From Candidatus Angelobacter sp. Gp1-AA117 (GTDB taxonomy: Bacteria; Acidobacteriota; Terriglobia; Terriglobales; Acidobacteriaceae), in contig QHVI01000055.1 of assembly GCA_003223515.1 (NCBI GenBank), positions 1-36,315 of the forward strand: a stretch of DNA of 36,315 bases, in the 5' to 3' direction. Each line of letters opens with the position of its first letter. Position 1 is the first letter of the stretch. The translations under genes were made by a program, and so were the position numbers. Below, one piece after another: positions 13,916 to 30,496 of this stretch. The notes beneath the pieces are model-generated. The model made no database searches and was not told the DNA's origin. It saw nothing but the letters and a program-made list of their open reading frames with translations.

Positions 13916-14172
13916 GCATCCCGGTGAGACGCAGCCCATCCGCGTCTCACCGTATTCTGTTTCTCTGTGATCTCCGCTTTCCTCGTCCTGCTGAAGCCCC
14001 GTAAATGCTCATTTTTAGAAAGGGAAAATCCGCCGTTTTAAAGTTCAAGGCTTTTTTCGCCAAGATTTTCACGCTGCTTCCTTGCCTACGCTTCACTTTC
14101 GTATCAACACGAGAATCTTTTGGGAGCAACATGCTGCCAAATCCAATACACATAAATTAATTACGTTTGTTA

Positions 14173-14405
14173 CCTCTGCGTCCTTTGCGCCCTCTGCATT
14201 ACTAACGTTCGAATTCTTCTCTGTTTTCGACAGATTCTCCCGCGCAGCCAAAGGGCGGGGTGCGGTCCATAGGGCCCAACACACCGCCAAATTCAATACA
14301 CATCAACTACTTTTGTACCTCTGCGTCCTCTACGTCCTCTGCGGTAAAAGGCTTTTGGTTGTGGCTCGCCACGCTGTGGTTAAAGGTTTTGGTTTTGGCT
14401 CCGCT
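14173..14405. repeat. Long direct repeat, copy A (upstream of bioB)
   Basis: This stretch matches 17357-17578 nearly throughout, starting CCTCTGCGTCCTTTGCGCC and passing through CTAACGTTCGAATTCTTCTC, CCGCGCAGCCAA, GCGGTCCATAGGG and ACACCGCCAAATTCAATACA. By eye identity is about 85-90 percent with a few small indels. A shorter third relative of the CCAAATTCAATACA block lies just upstream at about 14140-14200. Copy A ends 36 bases before the bioB start, so it may contain the bioB promoter. Confidence 0.85.
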
Positions 14406-14441
14406 ATGCTGCATCCATCCGATTTACAATATTCGGTTCTT

Positions 14442-15398
14442 ATGCGCACCAATTGGACCCGCTCTGAAATTGCCTCCATCTACCACCAGCCGCTGCTTGA
14501 TCTTCTATTGCAGGCGCAAAAGGTGCATCGCGAACATCATCCTGCCAACCAGGTGCAGATGTGCCGTTTGCTCTCGGTGAAGACCGGTGGATGTCCGGAA
14601 GATTGCGTCTATTGCCCGCAAAGCGCCCACTATCCGACCGGAGTGAAACCGCAGCGGCTGATGGAAACCGCAGAAATTCTCGCTGCAGCCCAGCGTGCCA
14701 AATCCGAAGGAGCGACCCGCTTTTGCATGGGAGCGGCTTGGCGTCAGGCGCCGCAGGGCAGGGAATTCGATTCCATGCTCGAATCGGTGCGCGCCGTCGC
14801 TGCCCTGGGTATGGAGGTGTGCTGCACGCTCGGAATGCTGACCCAGGCTCAGGCCGCTGCGCTCAAGCAGGCCGGACTCACCGCTTACAACCATAACCTC
14901 GATACTTCGCCCGAGTTCTACGGCAACATCATCACCACGCGGACTTACCAGGAGCGGCTCGATACCATTGCTGCCGTGCGCAAGGCGGGCATCACGGTCT
15001 GCTGCGGCGGAATTCTGGGCATGGGCGAATCCGATGACGATCGCATCGGCCTGCTGCATCAGTTGGCCACGCTCGATCCTCATCCGGAAAGCGTGCCTAT
15101 CAATATGCTGGTGCGCGCTCCCGGCACACCGCTGGCCGCCCAGTCTGATCTCGATCCGCTGATCATGGTGCGGACAATAGCCACAGCGCGCATTCTCATG
15201 CCTGCTTCCATGGTGCGCCTGGCCGCCGGACGCATGCAGATGTCCCGCGAAGCCGTGGTGCTCTGCTTCCTCGCCGGAGCCAACTCCATCTTTTACGGCG
15301 AAAAACTCCTGACTACACCGAACCCGGAGCCGGATGAGGATTTCAGCCTCTTGCGTGAGGTAGGATTGGTGCCGATGGAGCGTATTTCATTGCCGTGA
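14442..15398 (+). CDS. bioB: Biotin synthase
   Basis: BioB is the radical-SAM enzyme that inserts sulfur into dethiobiotin. The start chosen is the ATG at 14442 ([19 protein letters not shown]), which aligns with the usual N terminus; upstream in-frame codons lie in repeat DNA. The 318-residue protein has the CxxxCxxC cluster motif at Cys51, Cys55 and Cys58 ([13 protein letters not shown]), [55 protein letters not shown] and [18 protein letters not shown]. These cover the SAM and [2Fe-2S] ligand regions. It ends slightly earlier than E. coli BioB, lacking the variable tail. No other bio gene is nearby. No good Shine-Dalgarno is visible. Confidence 0.96.
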
Positions 15399-15423: not shown

Positions 15424-16020
15424 TCAGCTAAACAGCGGCGGTTGTAGCTTTTCCGGAGATGACTGTGGGGCCATTTTATGTGGAGTACTAATCCTGATGA
15501 AATTTCGAGGCGATTCGACGGCTTCTGATAACAGAGCTTTTCGATTTAAAGCAACAAACAACGCACAGGAGCGTGCCTGACAATTAATTGATCTTTCAGG
15601 GTTGAACTCGATATCCGTAAATCCAGCGTACTGATATAAACGCTTCAGCCAGTCGCGATGGGGAAAGGTTGCATTGACGTAGAGCCATCGTAAAAAGCTG
15701 TCTTAGGTTCAAGTGGGAAATTGAAATCCCCAAATCTGAATCCAATGAGCCGTCCAGAGCTCTGAAGGCGGTGATCTCGTTTTGCTGATTTTGGATCCAT
15801 ACGATACAAATCTGTATAAGGTCCGCCGCCTTCGAAGACTTTACTGCCCTGGAAAGCACACTCCAGAGTTATGTCTCCCACAGTGGAATGGTGCACTCTC
15901 AAATGAAATGCACTGAGATGCTGGCCTAGTGCATCGTCGGATTTTGTGGAAACCTCCAACAAAGGGAGGTACCCAGCTCTTGCTGCCGTGAGTGCTGGTC
16001 TACATCCAATCTCAAATGCT
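15424..16020 (-). pseudogene. Broken NADAR-type antitoxin (DarT1-associated family), frameshifted and N-truncated
   Basis: On the minus strand, 16010-15690 encodes AARAGYLPLLEVSTKSDD, then LECAFQGSKVFEGGGPYTDLY, SGRLIGFRFGDFNFPLEP and KTAFYD. The expected WLYVNATFPHRDWLKRLY and AGFTDIEFNPERSINCQARS follow, but in the next frame, because one base is missing at about 15686-15687 (GATGG instead of GAYTGG). After the shift the frame stays open to a TGA at 15426-15424. I recognise this as the family annotated as DarT1-associated NADAR antitoxin, whose members remove ADP-ribose from DNA modified by the DarT1 toxin. That assignment is from memory. The N-terminal part is missing: the similarity begins only about 15 bases beyond the MFS stop codon. 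No DarT-like toxin gene is adjacent. A sequencing error could explain the shift but not the missing start. Confidence 0.75.
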
Positions 16021-16032
16021 GAACCCGGTTTC

Positions 16033-17295
16033 TTACACCGCCATCTTTCCTGATACGCTGGCCTCCGGGAGTAAATCTTCAGCGCGAAATCTGGCAGGCA
16101 GGGGCAGATTTCGCAAGACCAGCACCAGCATGCAAGAAACAATGGCCAATCCCGCGCTGCCATAGAACACCCAGTTCCAGTTGCCAAATCTCTGGAAGAG
16201 CCAGGCCGCGGTGCCACCTCCCAGAATGGAGGCCACACCTTTCGCGGTGTAAAGGAACCCGTAATTGGAAGTGGCGTTGTCCGCGCCGAAGTAATCGCCA
16301 ATGATGGCGGGAAAGAGCGAGAACATGCTGCCCCAGATGAAATAGACAATGACCAGGCAAATATTGAACCAGGTGCCCGAGAGGCGGCCAACCCAGAGCA
16401 TAGCCAGCAGGCTGAAAGCCTGAAGAACAAAGGGAATGAACATGGCCATCTCCCGGCCGATGCGGTCGGAGAGCCAGCCCCAGAAGATGCGTCCGGCGCC
16501 ATTGGAGAGGCGACTGGAGGCGAGCGCGGCCGTCAGAGCCGCAGCGCTGATCTTGAAACTCTCCGCTACCGGACCACCCTGGGCTGTAAGCATCAAGCCG
16601 CCCACCGAGATCATCACGAAGGTGACATAGAGCAGATAAAAATGAGGCGTAAGCAGCATCTCCCAACTGTTGAACTGCTGGGAATTGCGCCGCAGTTTGG
16701 GCGAGACAGGCTTCTTGGCTGTAGCAGAAACCTGAAAATCAGCTCCGGGATTGTGGAGCACCTGCGCTACGATCAGAATCAAGAGGCTCTGCACGATGCC
16801 GGTGTATAGAAACGCCGTGCGATAGTTCGCGTGCTTAATGAGGTATTCAATAAAGGGTATGAAGAGGGCCGCCCCGGCGCCAAAGCCCGCAGTGATGAAC
16901 CCGGAGACAGTACCGCGTTTATCCGGAAACCATTTCAGCGCCGTGGCCACGGAGCCGCTATAGATAAAAGCAGCGCCCACGCCGGCCACCGAGTACAGGA
17001 CATAAAGCTGCATGAGCGAGTGAGCAAATGCTATGCTTGTCCAGCCGACGCCCACGAGCACTCCACCCAGGCTGAGAAAGATGCGGGGACCAAGGCGGTC
17101 GATCAGCCAGCCTTCCACGGGCGTGATCCAGGTCTCAAAGAAGATAAACAGCGTGAAGGCCCATTGAATGTCCGCGAGCCTCCAGTGTGTGTCAGCCTGC
17201 ATGGGTTTCACGAACAGAGTCCAGGCATACTGCAGGTTGGCGATCATGATCATGGCAATCACAGCGCTTGCGAATTGAGTCCACCGTTTGCTCAT
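16033..17295 (-). CDS. MFS transporter, OxlT (oxalate/formate antiporter-like) family
   Basis: A 12-helix major facilitator protein of 420 residues from the ATG at 17295, which has GAGGAT as ribosome site. A longer frame from 17316 would put that site inside the gene. Features are ANLQYAWTLFVKPMQ in TM1, WLIDRLGPRIFLSLGGVLVGVGW in the TM2-3 loop, GVGAAFIYSGSVATALKWFPDKRGTVSGF in TM4-5, and a second-half GWLSDRIGREMAMF loop. These match the oxalate/formate antiporter class, whose members exchange monocarboxylates or dicarboxylates. The downstream end abuts the NADAR remnant. The ketopantoate-reductase-like and oxalyl-CoA-synthetase-like genes lie upstream on the same strand, which supports an organic acid, possibly oxalate, as substrate. 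Confidence 0.9.
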   Translation of the reverse strand: MSKRWTQFASAVIAMIMIANLQYAWTLFVKPMQADTHWRLADIQWAFTLFIFFETWITPVEGWLIDRLGPRIFLSLGGVLVGVGWTSIAFAHSLMQLYVLYSVAGVGAAFIYSGSVATALKWFPDKRGTVSGFITAGFGAGAALFIPFIEYLIKHANYRTAFLYTGIVQSLLILIVAQVLHNPGADFQVSATAKKPVSPKLRRNSQQFNSWEMLLTPHFYLLYVTFVMISVGGLMLTAQGGPVAESFKISAAALTAALASSRLSNGAGRIFWGWLSDRIGREMAMFIPFVLQAFSLLAMLWVGRLSGTWFNICLVIVYFIWGSMFSLFPAIIGDYFGADNATSNYGFLYTAKGVASILGGGTAAWLFQRFGNWNWVFYGSAGLAIVSCMLVLVLRNLPLPARFRAEDLLPEASVSGKMAV

Positions 17296-17356
17296 ACCAT
17301 CCTCGTGATTTAGCAATTAGCAATTAGCAATTAGCTTTTGGCCCTTGGCTTTTCTT

Positions 17357-17578
17357 CCTCTGCGGCCTCTGCGTTCTCTGCATTGCTAACGTTCGAATTC
17401 TTCTCTGCTTGCGACGAATTCTCCCGCGCAGCCAAGGGCGGGTGCGGTCCATAGGGAGCAACACACCGCCAAATTCAATACATTATCAACTACTTTTGTT
17501 ACCTCTGCGCCCTCTGCGGTTAAAGCCTTTGGTTGTGGCTCGCCACGCTGCGGTTAAAGCCTTTGGTTGCGGCTCGCT
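17357..17578. repeat. Long direct repeat, copy B (between MFS gene and panE-like gene)
   Basis: Same orientation as copy A at 14173-14405 and similar over the whole length. Copy B also has a short internal duplication of GCGGTTAAAGCCTTTGGTTG (about 17513-17572). TAGCAATTAGCAATTAGC runs (17311-17336) lie just before it. The repeat fills the 304-base gap between the MFS start and the stop of the panE-like gene and would place the MFS promoter in or next to the repeat. Confidence 0.85.
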
Positions 17579-17599
17579 AGCTGCGTCCTTAGCGTTAAC

Positions 17600-18583
17600 C
17601 TAAGTTGCCCTCATGGCGGCGTGGCGCTCGGCCAGCAGCCTGGTGCACGCATACACGGTCCTCGTATATGGCATCGGCACTTCGAGATGTACGCCCAGCT
17701 CCACCACCGCGCCTACAATCGCTTCCAACTCCAGCGGCCTGCCGGCTTCCAGATCCTGAAGCATCGAGGTCTTATGCTCGCCCACTTTTTCCGCCCCGGC
17801 GATGCGCTGCTCAATGGAGACCGGCAACTCTATACCAAGACGGATGGAAAGCGCCTCGGTTTCTTTCATGATGCCGCGTATGATCTCCGCAACCTGCGGA
17901 TCGCGCACCATCTGCACCAGCGTGGCTCCAGTCAAGGCGCTGATGGGATTGAACGCCACGTTGCCGAGAATCTTTACCCAGATCTCGTTGCGTAAGTGCG
18001 TGGTGACCGGCGCGCGCAGCCCTGAAGCAATCAGCGCCTGGGCAATCTGCCGGCAACGTTCCGAGCGGCTGCCATCCGGCTCGCCCAGGGAGATGCGGTT
18101 GCCCTCGTGGTGCTTGATGACTCCGGGCTCCATGATCTCGGTGGAGAAATAAATGAGTGAGCCAACCACGCGGCGCGGCTCGATGGCTGTAGAAACCACT
18201 CCGCCGGGATCGACCTTTTCCAGATGCGTTCCGGCCAGCGGCCCGCCGTCATGCTGAAAATACCACCAGGGAATTCCGTTTTGCGTGCTGACGACGGTGG
18301 TCTCCGGCCCCAGCACCGGACGCAGTTGCGGAACCAGGGCAGGCAGTCCATGGGCCTTCACGCACAGGAAGACCACATCCATGGGGCCAGCTTCTTCAAG
18401 GTTGCCAATGATCCGGGGATGAGCGCGAAAATCATCATCGGCGCTGATGACGCGGACGCCGTTCTCCTGCATGGCGCGCAGATGAGCGCCGCGCGCGTGC
18501 AGGGTCACATCATATCCGGCGCGCGCCATCAGAGCGCCCATGTACGCCCCTACCGCGCCCGCGCCCACGATCAGGAATTTCAT
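17600..18583 (-). CDS. panE: 2-dehydropantoate 2-reductase family protein
   Basis: The ApbA/PanE family uses NADPH to reduce ketopantoate to pantoate for coenzyme A synthesis; several paralogues act on other 2-oxoacids. The 327-residue protein has the Rossmann motif GAGAVGAYMG (7-16), the TQNGIPWW segment (about 120), and the C-terminal-domain motif NEIWVKILGNVAFNPISALTG, where the Lys is the usual catalytic residue. Its ATG overlaps the stop of the upstream acyl-CoA synthetase gene (ATGA), so both are co-translated. That context suggests a role in organic acid metabolism rather than the housekeeping step, so the panE symbol is a family-level label. Confidence 0.85.
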   Translation of the reverse strand: MKFLIVGAGAVGAYMGALMARAGYDVTLHARGAHLRAMQENGVRVISADDDFRAHPRIIGNLEEAGPMDVVFLCVKAHGLPALVPQLRPVLGPETTVVSTQNGIPWWYFQHDGGPLAGTHLEKVDPGGVVSTAIEPRRVVGSLIYFSTEIMEPGVIKHHEGNRISLGEPDGSRSERCRQIAQALIASGLRAPVTTHLRNEIWVKILGNVAFNPISALTGATLVQMVRDPQVAEIIRGIMKETEALSIRLGIELPVSIEQRIAGAEKVGEHKTSMLQDLEAGRPLELEAIVGAVVELGVHLEVPMPYTRTVYACTRLLAERHAAMRAT

Positions 18584-20850: not shown

Positions 20851-20935
<85 letters not shown>

Positions 20936-21447: not shown

Positions 21448-22677
21448 TCAATCGTTGTGAGCTTCTTTGACTTTCAGTCCGCGTTCGAAGACTTCTTTGT
21501 TTTGCGAATCTCCCAAAACGGCCTTGGCGAACTCGACATTCTCCCAAGAGACTCTATTGCGAATGTCCGGATCGATAATGACATCTGCGGGCACGGCCTG
21601 AAATCCTCGTAATCCTTCGCCGGGACGCGCAAACAAAGGATCGATCTTGGTTTTTTCGAGAATTTTGGTGAGGTCTTGCCGTATCTCGTCGATTGATGTC
21701 GCAGATTTGTGATATAGCTCGTTCGTTTTGATCGGTCCGCCCTTTTCCCGATATTTTTGGGCGATCTCCAGCACGCGCAGATATCCCTTTTCCGTCAATT
21801 CGAAGGGTTTGCTGACACTGCATCCGAAGCTGATCTGAATCTCAAAGATGCTCCTGCCGTCTTTTTCATATGGTGCCCGGATCTTTAAAGAAGCCTTGCC
21901 ACCTGCTTTCTCATACATCCAGCTTACAATAAGGGCCATGAAGAGCATACATAGCATGATTTTGAAGGAAATATTGGAGGCCCACCGGAGATCATCGTAG
22001 CGCGCATGTTTATCAAAAAAGTCTGCCAGCCATGGCAACTCCGTAAACTGCACCGCAATATAGGGAATTACTACTGCGATAGAAAGCCATGCGAGAGTAT
22101 GGAAGCCTCTTTTCCAGAAGGACTTGTATATACCGACGAGCACAAACACAAGTACCAGTACGCCTAATGCAATATCCGGACAATTCGCATACTTGCCGTC
22201 GTAAGCGAGCATAAAAATCATGTTTGTGCCGAAACCAAACATGAAGAAAATGCCCATCGAGACCCAAATAGCTCCTTGGAGCGATAGCTGAGGGAGCCTT
22301 CGAAACCATTTCGTTAACACTCGTGGTACAAACTTTTCATAAGTCTCCAACCCTGCGGTTGCGCCAAGAATAAATGCGGAATTCATTGTCGAGAATAATG
22401 TTCGGAAAAGTTTTGAGACCGTCAGAACGTTGGATGGACCTGACTGTCCGTACTGCAATACTGCCATGACGCACCAGACGACATAGGCCAAGGCCAGGAG
22501 TATGATACTAGCATCTCTGTCTGATGTCTTTAATTGGTCATCAGGGCGTTCACTCCGGTGGCCGGGGATGCCTTTTGTCCAAATCGAAAATAGGGAAACA
22601 GCGGCTATAAAAAAGACCACTGCCTGTACGAGGGAGCCAACTTCTCGGGCGCTCAGGCTCACATTTTCAGCAGTCAT
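21448..22677 (-). CDS. Seven-helix membrane protein with cytosolic winged-helix-like C domain, unknown function
   Basis: I do not recognise a named family. The 409-residue protein has seven predicted membrane spans between about residues 12 and 260 (for example GSLVQAVVFFIAAVSLFSIW, IILLALAYVVWCVMAVLQYG, IWVSMGIFFMFGFGTNMIFML, LGVLVLVFVLVGIYKSF). A soluble C-terminal part of about 150 residues follows, with FELTEKGYLRVLEIAQKYREKGGPI and SIDEIRQDLTKILEKTKIDPLF, which could be a helical or winged-helix signalling domain. The first hydrophilic loop contains SERPDDQLKTSDRD. It is transcribed away from the RelA/SpoT-like gene across a 427-base A+T-rich spacer. Base composition is clearly lower in G+C than the housekeeping genes, which fits horizontal acquisition. 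Confidence 0.75.
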   Translation of the reverse strand: MTAENVSLSAREVGSLVQAVVFFIAAVSLFSIWTKGIPGHRSERPDDQLKTSDRDASIILLALAYVVWCVMAVLQYGQSGPSNVLTVSKLFRTLFSTMNSAFILGATAGLETYEKFVPRVLTKWFRRLPQLSLQGAIWVSMGIFFMFGFGTNMIFMLAYDGKYANCPDIALGVLVLVFVLVGIYKSFWKRGFHTLAWLSIAVVIPYIAVQFTELPWLADFFDKHARYDDLRWASNISFKIMLCMLFMALIVSWMYEKAGGKASLKIRAPYEKDGRSIFEIQISFGCSVSKPFELTEKGYLRVLEIAQKYREKGGPIKTNELYHKSATSIDEIRQDLTKILEKTKIDPLFARPGEGLRGFQAVPADVIIDPDIRNRVSWENVEFAKAVLGDSQNKEVFERGLKVKEAHND

Positions 22678-23104
22678 ACTAATAACAGGGCTCCAGCAAG
22701 GATTACCCCGGTTTGAACCTTCCTCTCACGCCATTCTCACGCTTGAATGAATATGGCTCACGATCATTCTCACGATACATCAGCCCAGAAAATTCATGTT
22801 TTTCCGGTGCGAAGTGTAAGAATTTCTGATAGGTCTGTCAATAGGAGAATTGCAATTTGCCCGGAAACTACTCCCTAAATATCTAGTGGGGAGGTCGAAC
22901 TTCCCTCAATTTCATTTTCATTGGAAAACTTTAACTTTACAGCAAGATACGAGTTACGGTTTGTTATAAGCCTTTGATTTCATTGACATATGTAAAGGAT
23001 TACCTCAGAATGCTTGCGCAGACCAAAAATATATCGAGTGTTTTTTGTATCGGGGACCACACCCATATAGATTTTTGGATAAACGTGGTCTTAACAAAAC
23101 TAAT
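22678..23104. promoter_or_regulatory. Divergent A+T-rich control region of the island
   Basis: This spacer separates the minus-strand membrane protein from the RelA/SpoT-like gene. Near-duplicate CATTCTCACGCTTGAATG and GATCATTCTCACGATACATC segments lie at about 22732-22780. The rest is A+T-rich with no ORF on either strand that resembles a protein. Confidence 0.45.
22983..23011 (+). promoter_or_regulatory. Sigma-70-type promoter for the RelA/SpoT-like gene
   Basis: A perfect TTGACA (22983-22988) is followed after exactly 17 bases by CAGAAT (23006-23011), which keeps four of six -10 positions. It would give a leader of about 85 bases to the ATG at 23105. A second A+T-rich TTATAA lies at about 22964. 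Confidence 0.55.
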
Positions 23105-24220
23105 ATGGCTGTTCAGAACGAAAAACTGCGTCTGAAGTTACTTACCGAATTTGAAAATCGGCTTAAGGACTTTCATGACCTTAAGAGCATCTGCGAGCAA
23201 CTGGTCAAGCAACTGCTCGACGAAGAGAAAATCAAAGTTCATACGGTCAGCGGACGAGTCAAAGAGAAGGACAAACTGGCGGAGAAACTCTCGAAACCAG
23301 AAAAGAACTACAGTAATCTGCGTGAGATTACTGACGTAGTGGGCATACGCATCATCACGCACTTCGAGGATGAAATTTATAAGATCGGTGACTTGATTAC
23401 AAAAGAATTTACCGTTGATCCAGCCAACTCCGTTGATAAAGGCAAGATGCTGGATCCTGACAGATTTGGCTATCTTTCGCTTCACTATATCTGTTCTCTT
23501 TCTGACCATCGCTTGAAATTACGCGAATACATGCGCTTCAGGGATATAGCTTTTGAAATTCAAATACGTTCCATCTTGCAGCACACGTGGGCGGAAATTG
23601 AGCATGACCTCGGATATAAGAGCGGGACAGGGGTTCCAGACCCAATTCGCAGACGGTTTTCACGCCTTGCTGGCCTACTGGAAGTAGCCGACCAGGAGTT
23701 TGGCGCGATTCGGGACTGGCTGCACAATTATGCCGCAACCGTCAAGACGGAGGTGACTACATCCCCGGAGGAAGTGGGTATCGACAATATTTCGTTGAAA
23801 GCAATCTTCGAGCAGAACAGTGTTGTTCACGAGATAGATGAAGAGATAGCCAAAGGAAGCAATGCAAAGCTCAAGGAATACGCCGCTAGATTCATTCCGC
23901 TACTTTCCCGCGGACTTCCCCTGGTCGGAATCAATACAGTCGGGCATCTTATTGCAGAACTGATCAGACAAAGAGACTTACTCGTATATCAGGCAATAGC
24001 AAGATTTAAGGACAAAGGGCTGGAGGACTTGGATCGCGGAGTAAGTGTTCTTCAACTGCTTTGGGTTTTATTATGGTTTCAGGGAGGAGAAGAGGGCATA
24101 CTCAAAGGTCTGGCAAAGATGGGGCTGGAGGGCAGTCAACCTAATCACGCCTTCGCACATGAAATGTCGCAACAAATTAACGAATTTCAAAAAAAGGCTG
24201 GGCTTCCTAAAATATCTTGA
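23105..24220 (+). CDS. RelA/SpoT-domain alarmone synthetase-like protein without hydrolase domain
   Basis: The protein belongs to the RelA_SpoT synthetase superfamily, which moves pyrophosphate from ATP to GDP/GTP, or to tRNA and adenosine nucleotides in toxin versions. From the ATG at 23105 it has 371 residues. Synthetase motifs are visible: GRVKEKDKL (50-58), ITDVVGIRI (75-83, with the Asp that binds metal), DRFGYLSLHY (119-128), EIQIRSILQH (151-160) and TWAEIEHDLGYK (161-172). There is no HD hydrolase domain and no TGS/ACT module. Residues about 215-371 form an alpha-helical C-terminal region I cannot name. A TTG at 23045 would extend it by 20 residues. It may be a small alarmone synthetase or a ToxSAS-type toxin; its place in the island favours a conflict role. 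Confidence 0.85.
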   Translation: MAVQNEKLRLKLLTEFENRLKDFHDLKSICEQLVKQLLDEEKIKVHTVSGRVKEKDKLAEKLSKPEKNYSNLREITDVVGIRIITHFEDEIYKIGDLITKEFTVDPANSVDKGKMLDPDRFGYLSLHYICSLSDHRLKLREYMRFRDIAFEIQIRSILQHTWAEIEHDLGYKSGTGVPDPIRRRFSRLAGLLEVADQEFGAIRDWLHNYAATVKTEVTTSPEEVGIDNISLKAIFEQNSVVHEIDEEIAKGSNAKLKEYAARFIPLLSRGLPLVGINTVGHLIAELIRQRDLLVYQAIARFKDKGLEDLDRGVSVLQLLWVLLWFQGGEEGILKGLAKMGLEGSQPNHAFAHEMSQQINEFQKKAGLPKIS

Positions 24221-24479
24221 TTTGTAATTAGAGTGTGAATACACTTTTACTGGATCCCCTTAAAAAATTGCTATAAAACAGTAACTAACATCTATCCAGC
24301 TTCACTGCGGCACGACAAAGTCATTCGCTGTCGAATGACGGAGTAAACGCCAATAGCTCTTTCTGGTGAGACCTTGCACGGAAGCAGTTTGACCTAGATC
24401 GGAAGTTGCCTAGGTGCCTCTCAGACGCTAATCAAAGACTTTGCCTGAAGTCGGCATCGTGAGGCAGAAAGGATTTTCA
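24221..24479. other. Spacer with palindrome before the four-gene operon
   Basis: The spacer holds GTGT-GAAT-ACAC just after the RelA-like stop and an exact hairpin GTCATTCG-CTGT-CGAATGAC at 24320-24339. This could end the first transcript, be an operator, or be a repeat-family hairpin. The operon promoter is probably in the second half, but no box is convincing. Confidence 0.45.
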
Positions 24480-24905
24480 ATGTCAAGGAGGATTGTCTCA
24501 GCGCAATTGCAGGCCGGATCTGTATCCGCAGCCAGCGATGTAGATTCTTATTTTGACAGGCTGATTAAGTACATACCATCGGATATAGTTGCCGCCTGGA
24601 TTTTTATAAGCAGCATATTCAAGGCGAGCAAGAGCACACCATCTCAGCCGGGGCTTCTTACGCTGTGGATCACGTTTTTTGTCGGGATTGCGTTCACCGC
24701 TTTATGGACATGGTTTCAGACGGACAAACCGGCATTCCCCAAACCGGTGGCCCAGACCGTAATTACAACAATAGCTTTTGCAGTGTGGGCCTACGCTTTA
24801 GGAGGCCCGTTCCCGGAATGGATTCCCGGGTTTTACAAGCCAGTGACCGGAAGCCTTATTTTAGTCGGCTACACGCTGCTAGTTGCTCGGTTTGTTCCTA
24901 AGTAA
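24480..24905 (+). CDS. Small multi-span membrane protein, first gene of the protease-NTPase operon
   Basis: From the ATG at 24480 (AAAGGA ribosome site, 7-base spacing) the product has 141 residues. A longer TTG start at 24441 lacks such a site. After a soluble start (MSRRIVSAQLQAGSVSAASD) comes DSYFDRLIKYIPSDIVAAWIFISSIF, then two or three further spans (LLTLWITFFVGIAFTALWTWF, VAQTVITTIAFAVWAYALG, SLILVGYTLLVARF). I have a general memory of similar small proteins with a K-Y-I-P-x-x-I-V-A motif beside NTPase-based conflict genes but cannot name a family. It precedes the M29 gene by seven bases and could be the membrane-acting effector or an anchor. Confidence 0.75.
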   Translation: MSRRIVSAQLQAGSVSAASDVDSYFDRLIKYIPSDIVAAWIFISSIFKASKSTPSQPGLLTLWITFFVGIAFTALWTWFQTDKPAFPKPVAQTVITTIAFAVWAYALGGPFPEWIPGFYKPVTGSLILVGYTLLVARFVPK

Positions 24906-24912
24906 ACGGTGT

Positions 24913-26295
24913 ATGATTATGGTACGAACACACTCCCAAGCCGAGTTGAACGGCGCTATTGCCCTGCTAGTCAAATCATTAGGCCTGCGAGGGGGAGAGA
25001 CGCTCGCAGTTTTTTTTGACGAGACTTCCGAGCAGGTTTCGCAACTCATCAGCTTCGCCGCTTCTCAGCTCGGCATATTGACATTACTACGCCAGGTTTC
25101 CAGAGAGGCGCAATCCCGTTTTCTCAAAGGGGATGAACTCCCTTTGGAAGATTCCTCCGCCCTATCGGAGGCGCTAGCGGTTATCACATGCCTTGGAGAC
25201 CATACCGATGGGCTTGCCTATAGAAGGGCGTTAATTTCGTTCGGGACTTCAACGGACAAGCGGATGGCGCATATGCCAGGCGCACTCCCTGAGTTTTTCC
25301 GGGACGCGATTGATGTGGATTATGAGCCGTTGATTAGAAAATGTGATGAGTTGGCCATTGTCCTGGCGGTAGGAAGTGAAGCCGTTGTTCGCACTTACAT
25401 ACACGACGAGGGCGGGCTTCCTGTCGAAGAGCACGTATTGCGCTTTCAACTGGGCGGGATGAAACGCCTTCCGGTAATCAGCACGGGCCTGATATCGCCC
25501 GGCACGTGGGGAAATGTTCCGGGTGCGGAAACTTTCATTGCTCCCATTGAGGGAACAGCGCATGGTACCTATGTAGTGAATGGTTCCTTCACGGATTGTG
25601 TCATCTCGGGCAGATCAAGAATCCTGCTTACGTTTTCACAAGGTAATTTGAGCAAGTTTGATGGTACGCCCGATGTTCTGCCGAAGTTCGTGGAATTGAT
25701 GGAAAGCCTGCCGCGTATGCCGGAAGGGACCGTTCTCGGATTGGCTGAATTCGGGATTGGGACAAACCCGGCCGTTCAAAAGCTGGTAGGTAAGTCGCTC
25801 ATCGATGAAAAATGTCTTGGAACAGCGCATATCGCGATTGGCGGCAACATCAGCTATGGGGGCAAGCTCAATGCGCCGGCCCACGAGGATTTTGTCACCA
25901 GGTTTCCCAGCATAGAAATCGATGGGAAAATGATCCTCTATCATGGCAAGGACAAGTTTGTAGGACGGGAATGGCGCGAGAGTGTAACAGAAGTTGAGGT
26001 CGCACCGGCCGCTCTCCGCCGGAATACCCAGGTGCGCAGAACATTCACGAGCGCTGAAGTAGGCGACGAATCCCTGAAGGTGCGGCGGATATTCCGTGCA
26101 GAGCGGCTGTGCAGCTACACGGTCGGCGAACCCAGCACCAGCAAATTGTTGTCGCGGGTGTATCGCCAAATACCCAACCTGCCCGGCTTGCTCGAAGTGG
26201 GGGATCTCATCCGGAGCACGGGCATGGCTCCAGACCTGCTCGGCGCAACCTTAACTATCCTTCATCGTCACGAGTTGGTTGAATTGAAAGAGTAA
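24913..26295 (+). CDS. M29-type metallo-aminopeptidase (aminopeptidase T-like) with C-terminal helical domain
   Basis: M29 enzymes are two-metal, usually cobalt- or zinc-dependent aminopeptidases. The core here shows the family pattern: GAETFIAPIEGTAHGT (Glu206), LAEFGIGTNPAVQ (Glu279), DEKCLGTAHIAIGGN (His306) and APAHEDFV (His324, Asp326). All five expected metal ligands are therefore present and the enzyme may be active. Residues about 1-190 form the usual first domain. After about 400 a C-terminal extension (LLSRVYRQIPNLPGLLEVGDLI to HRHELVELKE) resembles a winged helix. The product has 460 residues from the ATG at 24913; a second ATG lies at 24919. It is two bases from the next gene's GTG. 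Such a peptidase beside NTPases is unusual. Confidence 0.8.
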   Translation: MIMVRTHSQAELNGAIALLVKSLGLRGGETLAVFFDETSEQVSQLISFAASQLGILTLLRQVSREAQSRFLKGDELPLEDSSALSEALAVITCLGDHTDGLAYRRALISFGTSTDKRMAHMPGALPEFFRDAIDVDYEPLIRKCDELAIVLAVGSEAVVRTYIHDEGGLPVEEHVLRFQLGGMKRLPVISTGLISPGTWGNVPGAETFIAPIEGTAHGTYVVNGSFTDCVISGRSRILLTFSQGNLSKFDGTPDVLPKFVELMESLPRMPEGTVLGLAEFGIGTNPAVQKLVGKSLIDEKCLGTAHIAIGGNISYGGKLNAPAHEDFVTRFPSIEIDGKMILYHGKDKFVGREWRESVTEVEVAPAALRRNTQVRRTFTSAEVGDESLKVRRIFRAERLCSYTVGEPSTSKLLSRVYRQIPNLPGLLEVGDLIRSTGMAPDLLGATLTILHRHELVELKE

Positions 26296-26297
26296 TC

Positions 26298-27899
26298 GTG
26301 TCTGATTTTATTCCTCCATCGTCGCTTATCGAGACGTTGACGGAAGAGTGCGCGTTCGACAAGCGGCGGGTCGCAAATACCGATAATTTTGAGATCCACT
26401 ATTTGGATTTGACCTCGTTGAAGTTAAAGGTCAATCCGGACAGCACGCCTTTCCTCATTCCTAAACGTTTTGCCAATATGTCTCACATAACGGCCGCGCA
26501 ATTGCATGAGCTGATTCTGGTGCTAGAAAAAGAGGTGGGCTCGGGATTCAGCGGCGGCGTCCTAGTTTTGGGGGGGATGCTCCAGACCCTGAAAAACGTC
26601 ACGCAACGAACGCTTGTCAAGAATAAGGTCGCGGTGCTGGCACGAAACCAATTTCAAGAGGCATACCAGTCAGCCAACAGCGCCGGGCTGATCTCCGCGT
26701 TGACGACGGCGCTGGTGACCGCATTAGGCCGCCAGGCTTTGTCACCTTACCATTCAACAATCCCGGCGCTGGCCGGTTCCTTTTTTGGAAGAGGTCCCAT
26801 CCTGAAGAAAGTGTTTGACATTCAGGACAACTTCACCTTTGTGGGCAACCGGCGAATCGGAAAAACCAGCCTGCTCCAGGAGATCAAGCACCGTTTGAAG
26901 ATTAGTGGGAAACCCGTCATTATTGCCGATCTGTATGGGGCGGTATGCAGCAGCACCCACGAGGTGCTGACTCAGCTATTGCGAGACATTGATCCCTCCG
27001 GCAATTATGAACGCCATTCCACCACGCAGGACATCGGCCATGTTTTCCATTCAACCGTGGCCAGGCTTGCGCGAGAATCCACGGTCGTTGTTTTCATCGA
27101 CGAAATCGACAAAATCCTGGCCTTTGATCAAAGACAGTCGAATGAGCTGATGGAGCGCTTTCGGGACGTGTTCCACAAGGCGAACAATACGCGCTTCTAT
27201 GCCGCAGGATTCCGTAACGCCAAGTCGTTAATGAATGATGTAAAAACGCCGCTGTATGGATTCACAAAAATACTGGAATTGGAAGTATTAACAAGGGCCG
27301 AATCGAAAACCATGATCGAGCTTCCCCTCCTGAATTTGGGGATTGACATTCGCAATTCGGAGATCGTCGAAGCCATTTACGGCGAGACCGCCGGCCACCC
27401 TGAATTGATCCAGATGTGCTGCGCTGAGGTCATTCGTCATGTGGATGAAACGGGTGGTATTCCCGGACCGACGGACCTTCTGACCCAGGTATTTCAGTCC
27501 GGAGATTTCAGAGAGAAGGTCTTCGGAGCCTTCCTGGCCAATACGCATGCCCCTGAACGGCTGGCCACGTATCTTCTTATGAAAAGAGGCTTCAAGCTAG
27601 GTGGAACCTTTGACAATTTCGATTTTGACATACCGACGATTGACGAGTGCCTAAGGTCGGTAGGCAAGCAAGTGGCGACAGCAGAACTGTACACCATTAC
27701 GGAAAACCTCTTGATCAGCGGAATATTGGTCAGGCGCACCGGCAGCAATCGATTCCGCTTCGCAATTCCACAGCTTGCGCGGTATTGCCAGAACTATGGT
27801 CTCGAATTCATGATCCGAAAAGCGCTCGAAGAAATAGGCAATTTACGATCATCATGGGCGGAAGTTCTCAGGGGAGAGCCCGAAAGAAAGCTGCTGTGA
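26298..27899 (+). CDS. P-loop NTPase (AAA/STAND-like) with unassigned N-terminal domain
   Basis: The start is GTG at 26298, two bases after the M29 stop, giving 533 residues. Residues 1-160 make an alpha/beta domain I do not recognise; it contains DLTSLKLKVNPDSTPFLIPKRF, a glycine-rich GSGFSGGVLVLGGMLQTLKN and KNKVAVLARNQF. The NTPase follows: SFFGRGPILKKVF (161-173, the box before Walker A typical of STAND and archaeal-ATPase types), Walker A VGNRRIGKTSLLQ (182-194), and Walker B VVVFIDEID (263-271). FYAAGFRNAKSL holds a sensor-like position, and ETAGHPELIQMCCAEV resembles the GxP-type motif of this class. A C-terminal winged helix (about 430-510) follows. A regulatory switch is the likely role; the trigger is unknown. 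Confidence 0.82.
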   Translation: MSDFIPPSSLIETLTEECAFDKRRVANTDNFEIHYLDLTSLKLKVNPDSTPFLIPKRFANMSHITAAQLHELILVLEKEVGSGFSGGVLVLGGMLQTLKNVTQRTLVKNKVAVLARNQFQEAYQSANSAGLISALTTALVTALGRQALSPYHSTIPALAGSFFGRGPILKKVFDIQDNFTFVGNRRIGKTSLLQEIKHRLKISGKPVIIADLYGAVCSSTHEVLTQLLRDIDPSGNYERHSTTQDIGHVFHSTVARLARESTVVVFIDEIDKILAFDQRQSNELMERFRDVFHKANNTRFYAAGFRNAKSLMNDVKTPLYGFTKILELEVLTRAESKTMIELPLLNLGIDIRNSEIVEAIYGETAGHPELIQMCCAEVIRHVDETGGIPGPTDLLTQVFQSGDFREKVFGAFLANTHAPERLATYLLMKRGFKLGGTFDNFDFDIPTIDECLRSVGKQVATAELYTITENLLISGILVRRTGSNRFRFAIPQLARYCQNYGLEFMIRKALEEIGNLRSSWAEVLRGEPERKLL

Positions 27900-30496
27900 A
27901 CCAAGTTGCCAAGAGACTGCTTGCCAAGTGCGTCGACCCGTCACGCACTCCCTATATCGCTGTACTCGGGCCAGCAGGTTCGGGCAAGACCCTGCTGCTT
28001 AAGACACTGTTCCAGAAGCTGCGCAAAAGGCAGGGGGTGCTGCCCGTTTTCCTGAGCCTGCGCGAACTCGCGTTGAATTCTGAAGTGGAAATGCAGGCCC
28101 AATTGATCGGACAGCTGTTGCAGCAGTTGGACGAGATCGATCCCGCGGTGGCTGACAACTTAAGAGATTCAAAAAGCTCGAATCTGGCTCAATTTCTTGA
28201 ACAGCTGTGCAACTTGACCAGCAAACGAATTGTCCTTTTCCTGGACCAGTTTGACAGCGTTCCACATTTCTTCTCGCGCCACATTTCGCGGCAACTCCGG
28301 CTCCTTTACGAAAAGGCGGCTTCTGAAAAGCACTTGTCAAGGCTCGGGGTGTTTGTCGCCGGTGTGTTGAGCATCTTCCATATCAAGCGTGAAACGGATT
28401 CCGCATTTGCCTTTTTCAGCACCGAAGCGCTGCCGTCCAATCCTCTTTCCGAACGCATCTCCGCGATTGTGGACCAACTGCCTCGCGGTCTCATTATCCA
28501 CGCCAAGGCGCTGGAGTGGCTTGCCAAATACTGCGGCCCTGATCCGGCGTTTCTGAAGGGCGTTCTAGACGAGCTAAAAAACCCGGCAATCGGAAAAGGG
28601 CAGATTTCGCCACGCTTGTTATCACAAATTGCCGCACGAAAAGTGTTTGGGCACAACGTTCTCCGGGAGATCGCTCTTAACGTGTGGCGGGATTCCTATT
28701 TGTTTGAGGTTGTGAACGAACTGCTTGAAAACAAGGCGCCGGTCCCCCTGCAAGAGCCGATTGTTGATGTCTCGGCCTTCCATCTGCAGGGAGTTGTCGT
28801 AGTCGAGAACGACCGGTATTTATTTCGAAATGAGCTGATAAAGAAACATGCGGCACGCATACTGGATGTCATACGCCAATGCCATTCAACCATCACCTCG
28901 CGGCAGCTCATGCGGCTGAAAGAGAAAGCTTCGGAAACGCCTGGAGCGCATGACATCATAATCCTGGAGTCCTTGAAACGCGCCTTCAATGAGGGCAACA
29001 CCATTGCTGACGTCAAGGGCATTCTCAGGAACATCTGGAGCACCTTGCGGGCCGGCGAGGGACCAGATCTGGACATCCATTCCGAAGTCGCGCTGCCGTC
29101 CAGTGATTTGAAAACACAGAGCGCGTCCCACGTCGCTCTTGATGCCGCAATCAGACTCAGGCGCCCCGGTTTCGGCTGGGACAAGAGCCATGTCTCGATA
29201 TGTGTTCCAGTGAAACTTGCGAACCTCAACGTATTCGTGACTGCGGAGGTTGCGCGGGCGGAATTGCGGGCTGATTTTTCCGAATGGGCTTTAGCCGTAT
29301 GGATCTATTTGCTCGGCGAACTGCGCATGCCTATTATTGCCTATACTATGTTGCCGCTGATTGCCGCAGAAAAAACGTCGGACGCACAGCCTTTCAGGAG
29401 CTTGGGGAATGCTCCCTCCACACCGTCCACTAAAAAGGCCCTCAAAGTTCTTGAGAGCGTGTTCATTGAACTAGCTTTTAGTGCGGGAGACCCGAATGAT
29501 TATATGCGCGACGTGGTCGAGCGGGCACAGATGGATAGAAACATGCGCATCGCAGCATTGAGCAATATTACCGGAGCGCCGGATGCCGCAACACGCAGGC
29601 TGCTACATTGGGCCTTTGAAACCGGAAGAGCGCATGATGATCCAAGCACTCCCATCCTGCAGCGGCTCGCGATGGGCATCTTCGATGATCTAGGTATGGA
29701 GCAACGTCGGCTGCTGCTGTCTGCCCTTTTGCAGTTGCCGGCCTGTTTCAACAGCACGGCTGAACTGATAGCTTCCGACTTGGCTGTTCCTCTGCCGGCG
29801 GTGGCTTCACTCGTGCACGCTGATATTTCCAGTTTCGATGTTCCGGAGTCCGACACGCAACTGCAGGGTTTTCTGCGAAAACCTGTTGAGTTCCTAGATG
29901 TAGGTCTTCTCAACAAAGCATTGGAGCGCTCTCGCACGGTTTGCCTGATTACGCTTGCAGACAACACGCGCTTCGGCAGCGGAGTGTTTATGGAGAAGGA
30001 TTTAATCATTACAAACTATCACGTGCTGGAAACTAACGGCCAGATCGAAAGTGCGGCCAACGCAGTGAGCATCCAACTCGGATTTACAAGCGGGCAAGCT
30101 GGCGTGCCTTGCGAACTTCATAACGCCCCGATTGTTGCCTCCAGCCGAACAGCAGAATTAGATTACGTGCTTTTGCGGCTGCGATCTCCCCGACCAGACG
30201 GGCTGAAACTCTCGTCTTCCTTTGAATATAAGCCTAAATCGGCGCTGCACATCCTGCAGCATCCACGGGGCGGATCCATGAAGCTGTCACTCAGCCACAA
30301 TGGATTGGTCGAAGCTCTTCCACCCGCTGGCAAGCTCCGTTATGTGACCACGACGGCGGGGGGCTCCAGTGGCGCACCGTGCTTCGACGAAAACTGGAAT
30401 CTTATAGCCATTCACCGGGCCGAGAAGGCTACCGGGTTCGGATCTGTCCGCGAAGGTATTCTGCTGGAGTCCATTCTCGCTGACGCAAAACTTTGA
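27896..30496 (+). CDS. STAND-like NTPase fused to a C-terminal trypsin-like serine protease
   Basis: The chosen start is the GTG at 27896, which overlaps the preceding TGA (GTGA) and gives 866 residues; an ATG at 27854 would add 14. The N-terminal NTPase has Walker A GPAGSGKT (25-32) and Walker B RIVLFLDQFD near 115-124. A long helical middle part (about 300-680) has no motif I can name; its EFLDVGLLNKALERS end leads into the protease. That domain (about 690-866) has His709 in ITNYHVL, Asp756 in LDYVLLRL and Ser825 in GGSSGAPCF, so the chymotrypsin-type triad is intact. NTPase-gated trypsin-like proteases are known in bacterial conflict systems. The gene is the last of the operon. Confidence 0.85.
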   Translation: MNQVAKRLLAKCVDPSRTPYIAVLGPAGSGKTLLLKTLFQKLRKRQGVLPVFLSLRELALNSEVEMQAQLIGQLLQQLDEIDPAVADNLRDSKSSNLAQFLEQLCNLTSKRIVLFLDQFDSVPHFFSRHISRQLRLLYEKAASEKHLSRLGVFVAGVLSIFHIKRETDSAFAFFSTEALPSNPLSERISAIVDQLPRGLIIHAKALEWLAKYCGPDPAFLKGVLDELKNPAIGKGQISPRLLSQIAARKVFGHNVLREIALNVWRDSYLFEVVNELLENKAPVPLQEPIVDVSAFHLQGVVVVENDRYLFRNELIKKHAARILDVIRQCHSTITSRQLMRLKEKASETPGAHDIIILESLKRAFNEGNTIADVKGILRNIWSTLRAGEGPDLDIHSEVALPSSDLKTQSASHVALDAAIRLRRPGFGWDKSHVSICVPVKLANLNVFVTAEVARAELRADFSEWALAVWIYLLGELRMPIIAYTMLPLIAAEKTSDAQPFRSLGNAPSTPSTKKALKVLESVFIELAFSAGDPNDYMRDVVERAQMDRNMRIAALSNITGAPDAATRRLLHWAFETGRAHDDPSTPILQRLAMGIFDDLGMEQRRLLLSALLQLPACFNSTAELIASDLAVPLPAVASLVHADISSFDVPESDTQLQGFLRKPVEFLDVGLLNKALERSRTVCLITLADNTRFGSGVFMEKDLIITNYHVLETNGQIESAANAVSIQLGFTSGQAGVPCELHNAPIVASSRTAELDYVLLRLRSPRPDGLKLSSSFEYKPKSALHILQHPRGGSMKLSLSHNGLVEALPPAGKLRYVTTTAGGSSGAPCFDENWNLIAIHRAEKATGFGSVREGILLESILADAKL

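Follow-up and report, generated by a model that had tools for sequence, protein, structure and literature searches.

The interval between the biotin synthase gene bioB and a gene for an MFS transporter raises the question of whether it holds the remains of an antitoxin and, if so, what became of the toxin. The window, that is the whole stretch of DNA analysed here, comprises 36,315 nucleotides of contig QHVI01000055.1 of Candidatus Angelobacter sp. Gp1-AA117. A sequence-only reading of it had described two minus-strand frames between these genes, joining near 15687, and both are present as described. Our answer is that the locus is very probably a non-functional antitoxin remnant of a darT1-NADAR module, and that a 5' fragment of darT1, likewise non-functional, lies elsewhere in this genome. 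The features of the region are:

14166 to 14416, plus strand: second copy of a dispersed repeat, just upstream of bioB (context)
14409 to 15398, plus strand: bioB (biotin synthase), intact, start provisional, with PF04055 and PF06968
15424 to 15686, minus strand: NADAR fragment B, in the shifted frame, PF22397 positions 143-211 of 212, with the counterpart of the catalytic D171
15687 to 15983, minus strand: NADAR fragment A, PF22397 positions 47-145, with counterparts of E. coli C7 E88, K95 and K115
15984 to 16032, minus strand: 49-nt spacer separating the MFS stop codon from the profile match, family-like at 15984-15995 by eye only and otherwise unassigned
16033 to 17298, minus strand: MFS transporter gene, intact, start provisional, PF07690 at 2.3e-58, its 3' end abutting the remnant
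17346 to 17600, plus strand: copy of the same dispersed repeat, between panE and the MFS gene (context, outside the remnant)

Each frame taken alone matches PF22397, the profile of DarT1-associated NADAR antitoxins, fragment A with an E-value of 6.5e-39 (134 bits) and fragment B with 1.9e-24 (86.8 bits), both above the cut-off of 27 bits, and so the family proposed from the letters alone is borne out. Read as one protein with an X at the junction, which was the check that had been proposed, they match positions 47-211 of 212 at 7.6e-68, and on these E-values a chance likeness can be considered excluded. The read-through also matches a solved NADAR of Geobacter lovleyi, chain 8bat_A (7.7e-44), and by profile and solved chain the remnant belongs to the same family as the G. 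lovleyi and E. coli C7 proteins. When the genome was searched with PF22397 in six frames, the two pieces were the sole matches at E <= 0.001 (A at 15687-15983 with 131.3 bits, B at 15490-15729). The general NADAR profile, PF08719, has no match anywhere in the genome, and PF22397, not PF08719, is the right model here. The fragment is recognised by neither NCBIfam nor PADLOC; the latter is no test of it, because PADLOC likewise misses the NADAR of L003, a related locus from an Acidobacteriaceae MAG. The list of open reading frames shows a misleading frame of 285 codons at this place, where the remnant is picked up immediately by a profile search.

What survives is the C-terminal four fifths of the antitoxin, about 185 codons on the minus strand. 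The extent first given, 15424-16020, stands at its lower end, where the frame of fragment B runs to a stop codon at 15426-15424; the upper end does not, as the profile match starts at 15983 (by eye perhaps at 15995), 49 nt from the MFS stop codon at 16033-16035. Homology within those 49 nt was inspected by eye and not accepted. The N terminus had been said to be missing where the MFS gene ends, and PF22397 positions 1-46, some 45 residues, are indeed absent, including the N-terminal extension ahead of the YbiA-like core; no such piece was found elsewhere in the genome, in a search run without a positive control. The remnant has no start codon, its frame A being open from within the MFS coding region, and near 15687, directly after a conserved FYD, the frame changes, so that no single continuous reading frame with a start codon exists. 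Unlike an intact DarT1-associated NADAR, the remnant thus lacks a start, about 45 N-terminal residues, a continuous frame and an adjacent toxin gene, and is a pseudogene.

In the published account, E88, K95 and D171 of the E. coli C7 NADAR are catalytic, K115 is conserved among DarT1-associated NADARs, and the N-terminal extension adjoins the active site (PMC11543638). The remnant has the same residues at all four positions as that account gives them, at L003-numbered columns 86, 93, 113 and 169, with a constant offset of 2; the correspondence comes from spacing and from an alignment that did not include E. coli C7 itself. The first three lie in fragment A and the counterpart of D171 in fragment B, and since the retained key residues are divided between two frames the locus would make no plausible working antitoxin, from which we infer that activity has been lost. 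It might still be supposed that the cell makes a shortened orphan antitoxin from the fragment as protection against incoming DarT1 elements, given that its conserved residues are kept and that continuous-frame NADARs without a detected DarT1 do exist, at 4 of 80 related loci. This we regard as highly improbable, as there is no start codon, the catalytic residues are split, and the extension placed beside the active site in the same account (PMC11543638) is missing.

The damage is otherwise slight. Across 74 distinct relatives 61 NADAR columns are conserved at >= 90%; eight of these belong to the lost N terminus and one coincides with the junction, and the other 52 of 52 are unchanged. Beyond the truncation and the frame change no disabling change was seen in the roughly 185 codons, in-frame stops included, where undamaged means from column 46 onward: homology starting at 15995 would make the invariant H43 changed or lost. 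Because the remnant is so little altered, the break looks recent on the family's own scale, or else the frame change is an artefact. The lack of in-frame stops or other disabling changes and the full set of testable columns, in a draft assembly of 206 contigs, do speak for a sequencing or assembly error in a NADAR piece that is really one continuous frame. We nevertheless consider such an error unlikely, for the five-base A run nearby does not include the site of the frame change, and correcting the frame would restore neither the start nor the 45 or so N-terminal residues, leaving the gene still broken.

The genes on either side of the remnant are intact. The MFS C terminus is similar in length to those of relatives, and bioB, which is convergent with the remnant, has its stop codon 25 nt from that of fragment B. 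Of the other genomes of the genus, eight in all, five have bioB orthologues with 79-82% identity. Five of them (G002-G006) keep acs, panE and the MFS gene together, with bioB on a separate contig; G005 has both genes close to contig ends, and their separation there rests on a different gene downstream of bioB. Past the MFS gene there is sequence in four relatives, in three of which a hairpin with a T run can be seen by eye, and here the remnant occupies that place. The bioB-MFS neighbourhood is therefore new relative to the genus genomes compared, with the remnant at the junction. When the bioB-MFS interval was compared by blastn with what follows bioB or MFS in relatives, the one match, of 20 nt (E 0.011), was taken as chance.

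As for the toxin, the locus had been called toxin-less, and this holds for the immediate surroundings: there is no adjacent darT1, as there would be in a darT1-NADAR operon, the MFS gene occupying that site. It does not hold for the genome, where looking for darT1 elsewhere, as had been suggested, recovers a fragment on another contig. The DarT profile PF14487 finds no DarT in the genome and does not report this fragment, and the L003 DarT1 protein matches PF14487 at 2.8e-20. With L003 DarT1 as the query the genome gives one match, at C133:63678-63857 on the plus strand, with 72% identity over residues 4-63 and an E-value of 1.3e-23. The feature is:

Contig C133, 63669 to 63857, plus strand: 5' fragment of darT1, the first 60 or so codons, with its ATG kept at 63669

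Against a profile that we built from 53 distinct related DarT1 proteins it scores 72.9 bits, and it covers 12 of the 27 DarT1 columns conserved at >= 90%, none of which is damaged. With the 52 NADAR columns this makes 0 of 64 changed, which by our arithmetic would bound amino-acid change since the break at less than about 5% (95% bound). The likeness is to DarT1, the guanine-specific DNA ADP-ribosyltransferase of the PF14487 family; unlike a full DarT1, the piece is the N-terminal third only, and everything after about residue 63 is gone and was not found. A short FTADV stretch beyond that residue was not counted as further DarT1 likeness, as it overlaps the end of the next gene and the profile does not report it. 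The fragment lies 77 nt from the start of a gene that is presumably M20-peptidase-like, and on its 3' side 42 nt of unassigned sequence separate it from the end of a gene that is presumably, reading by eye, a methyltransferase; the latter has no close match in the genus, the best being 36% identity over part of its length. A toxin profile can therefore miss a matching toxin fragment, and PF14487 alone would have been misread as indicating no trace of the toxin. Near this piece are two very similar tandem genes (L132:14173-15723 and 15855-17390, of 516 and 511 codons) that appear by eye to encode membrane proteins.

Whether the two fragments belong together can be judged from related loci, of which 226 were found and 80 kept, chosen by NADAR similarity. 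A DarT1-like frame occurs somewhere in the fetched stretch at 76 of the 80, by a profile built from these same loci, and plain tblastn finds DarT1 in 66; with a darT1 5' piece surviving in this genome, the proposal that the locus is the scar of a lost DNA-ADP-ribosylation module is very likely right. The four loci without a detected DarT1 (L007, L009, L068 and L071) resemble the remnant in having no DarT1 beside the NADAR, and differ from it in their continuous NADAR frames. Those of L007 (5869-6516) and L009 (5869-6528) are continuous NADAR-DarT1 genes with no DarT1 detected in the stretch, and in both loci the upstream frame looks by eye to be, we assume, a serine recombinase. In L003 darT1 runs directly into NADAR, and the genes that follow are presumably conjugation genes. 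Because of this layout and of the DarT1-like frames at 76 of 80 loci, the C133 piece and the remnant would be the two opposite ends of an operon of this kind whose middle is gone.

It is likely that both pieces come from one operon. By score L003 is the nearest relative of both, among 80 loci for NADAR and 58 for DarT1, which is suggestive and no more than that, given that NADAR similarity had been the basis for choosing the loci and that the L003 toxin was the probe; ranked by percent identity, L019 and L004 come slightly ahead of L003 for NADAR. The competing view, which touches the history and not the identification of the remnant, is that the fragments stem from different modules or copies and decayed independently. 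Their GC content, 47% against 54%, counts against one operon, they lie on different contigs with different neighbours, and beyond L003 their lists of ranked relatives differ; set against this, the pieces are complementary and do not overlap, and they share the same nearest relative by score. Moreover, PF22397 was found in 0 of 60 other relatives searched (completeness 54-100%), and this search, although for NADAR only, makes two acquisitions here less likely. We regard separate origins as somewhat doubtful, though a serious competitor to the single operon.

A horizontal source for that operon would fit the wider distribution of the family. It is present on 28 of 72,556 plasmid records, of which 16 are typed as conjugative or mobilizable and the other 12 as non-mobilizable, and this occurrence is consistent with a mobile origin of the module; the L003 NADAR had no match among phage records.

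On balance we favour a history in which one horizontally acquired darT1-NADAR operon was broken by DNA rearrangement, an order of events that we infer from the two ends. After acquisition, a rearrangement through the middle of the operon would have separated its ends and disabled both genes. The 3' portion of NADAR, about 185 codons, would have stayed beside bioB and become joined to the end of the MFS gene, while about 60 codons of the 5' portion of darT1 would have stayed beside the M20-peptidase-like gene on C133. By the L003 layout the lost middle would amount to about 110 codons of darT1 and about 45 of NADAR, and the NADAR piece would additionally have suffered its frame change. No fuller copy of either gene was found in the genome by the searches made. 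It is quite possible, and we propose it tentatively, that a single chromosomal rearrangement split the operon and disabled toxin and antitoxin at once, each of the two new junctions retaining one of its ends. A single exchange would give M20-darT1'/methyltransferase and MFS/NADAR'-bioB together, the MFS and methyltransferase genes both ending at the breakpoints.

Gene order was compared between the genome's own genes and the genus genomes at an E-value of 1e-25 and >= 45% identity. The order M20-darT1-NADAR-bioB occurs in no relative, and little gene order around these genes is shared. In G004 a distance of 25 kb on one contig separates M20 from MFS; in G003, G005 and G006 the two are on different contigs. 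Between them in G004 one other own gene maps, from the distant position 12076-12933 of C133 (56% identity), and G006 has a homologue of this gene (55%) at about 3 kb from acs; these homologues could be a weak hint of an old link between the two regions.

If the single cut took place, this would be a concrete case of an addictive module dismantled without a toxin-only state. The locus bears on how toxin-antitoxin modules are lost and offers no new system or mechanism: we see in it the broken remains of a known toxin-antitoxin pair, well documented but ordinary as pseudogenes go, and a recent-looking darT1-NADAR fossil in a group whose other searched genomes are without the antitoxin family.

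Two further observations concern the surroundings. The bioB-NADAR-MFS block is flanked by two same-direction copies of the dispersed repeat, which is about 250 bp long and has at least 58 matches in the genome (40 scored of 451 first-look candidates); in the eight other genomes of the genus there are short matches only (22-44 bp) in four and none in the other four, which looks like a recent lineage-specific burst. In relatives panE and the MFS gene are nearly adjacent, where here a repeat copy lies between them. Beside a tRNA-Leu gene (20851-20935), a cluster at 21448-30496 encodes an AAA ATPase, a RelA/SpoT-domain protein (PADLOC PDC-S33, 1.6e-15), a NACHT/AAA protein carrying a trypsin-like domain at its C terminus, and unassigned proteins, and is possibly a defence island.
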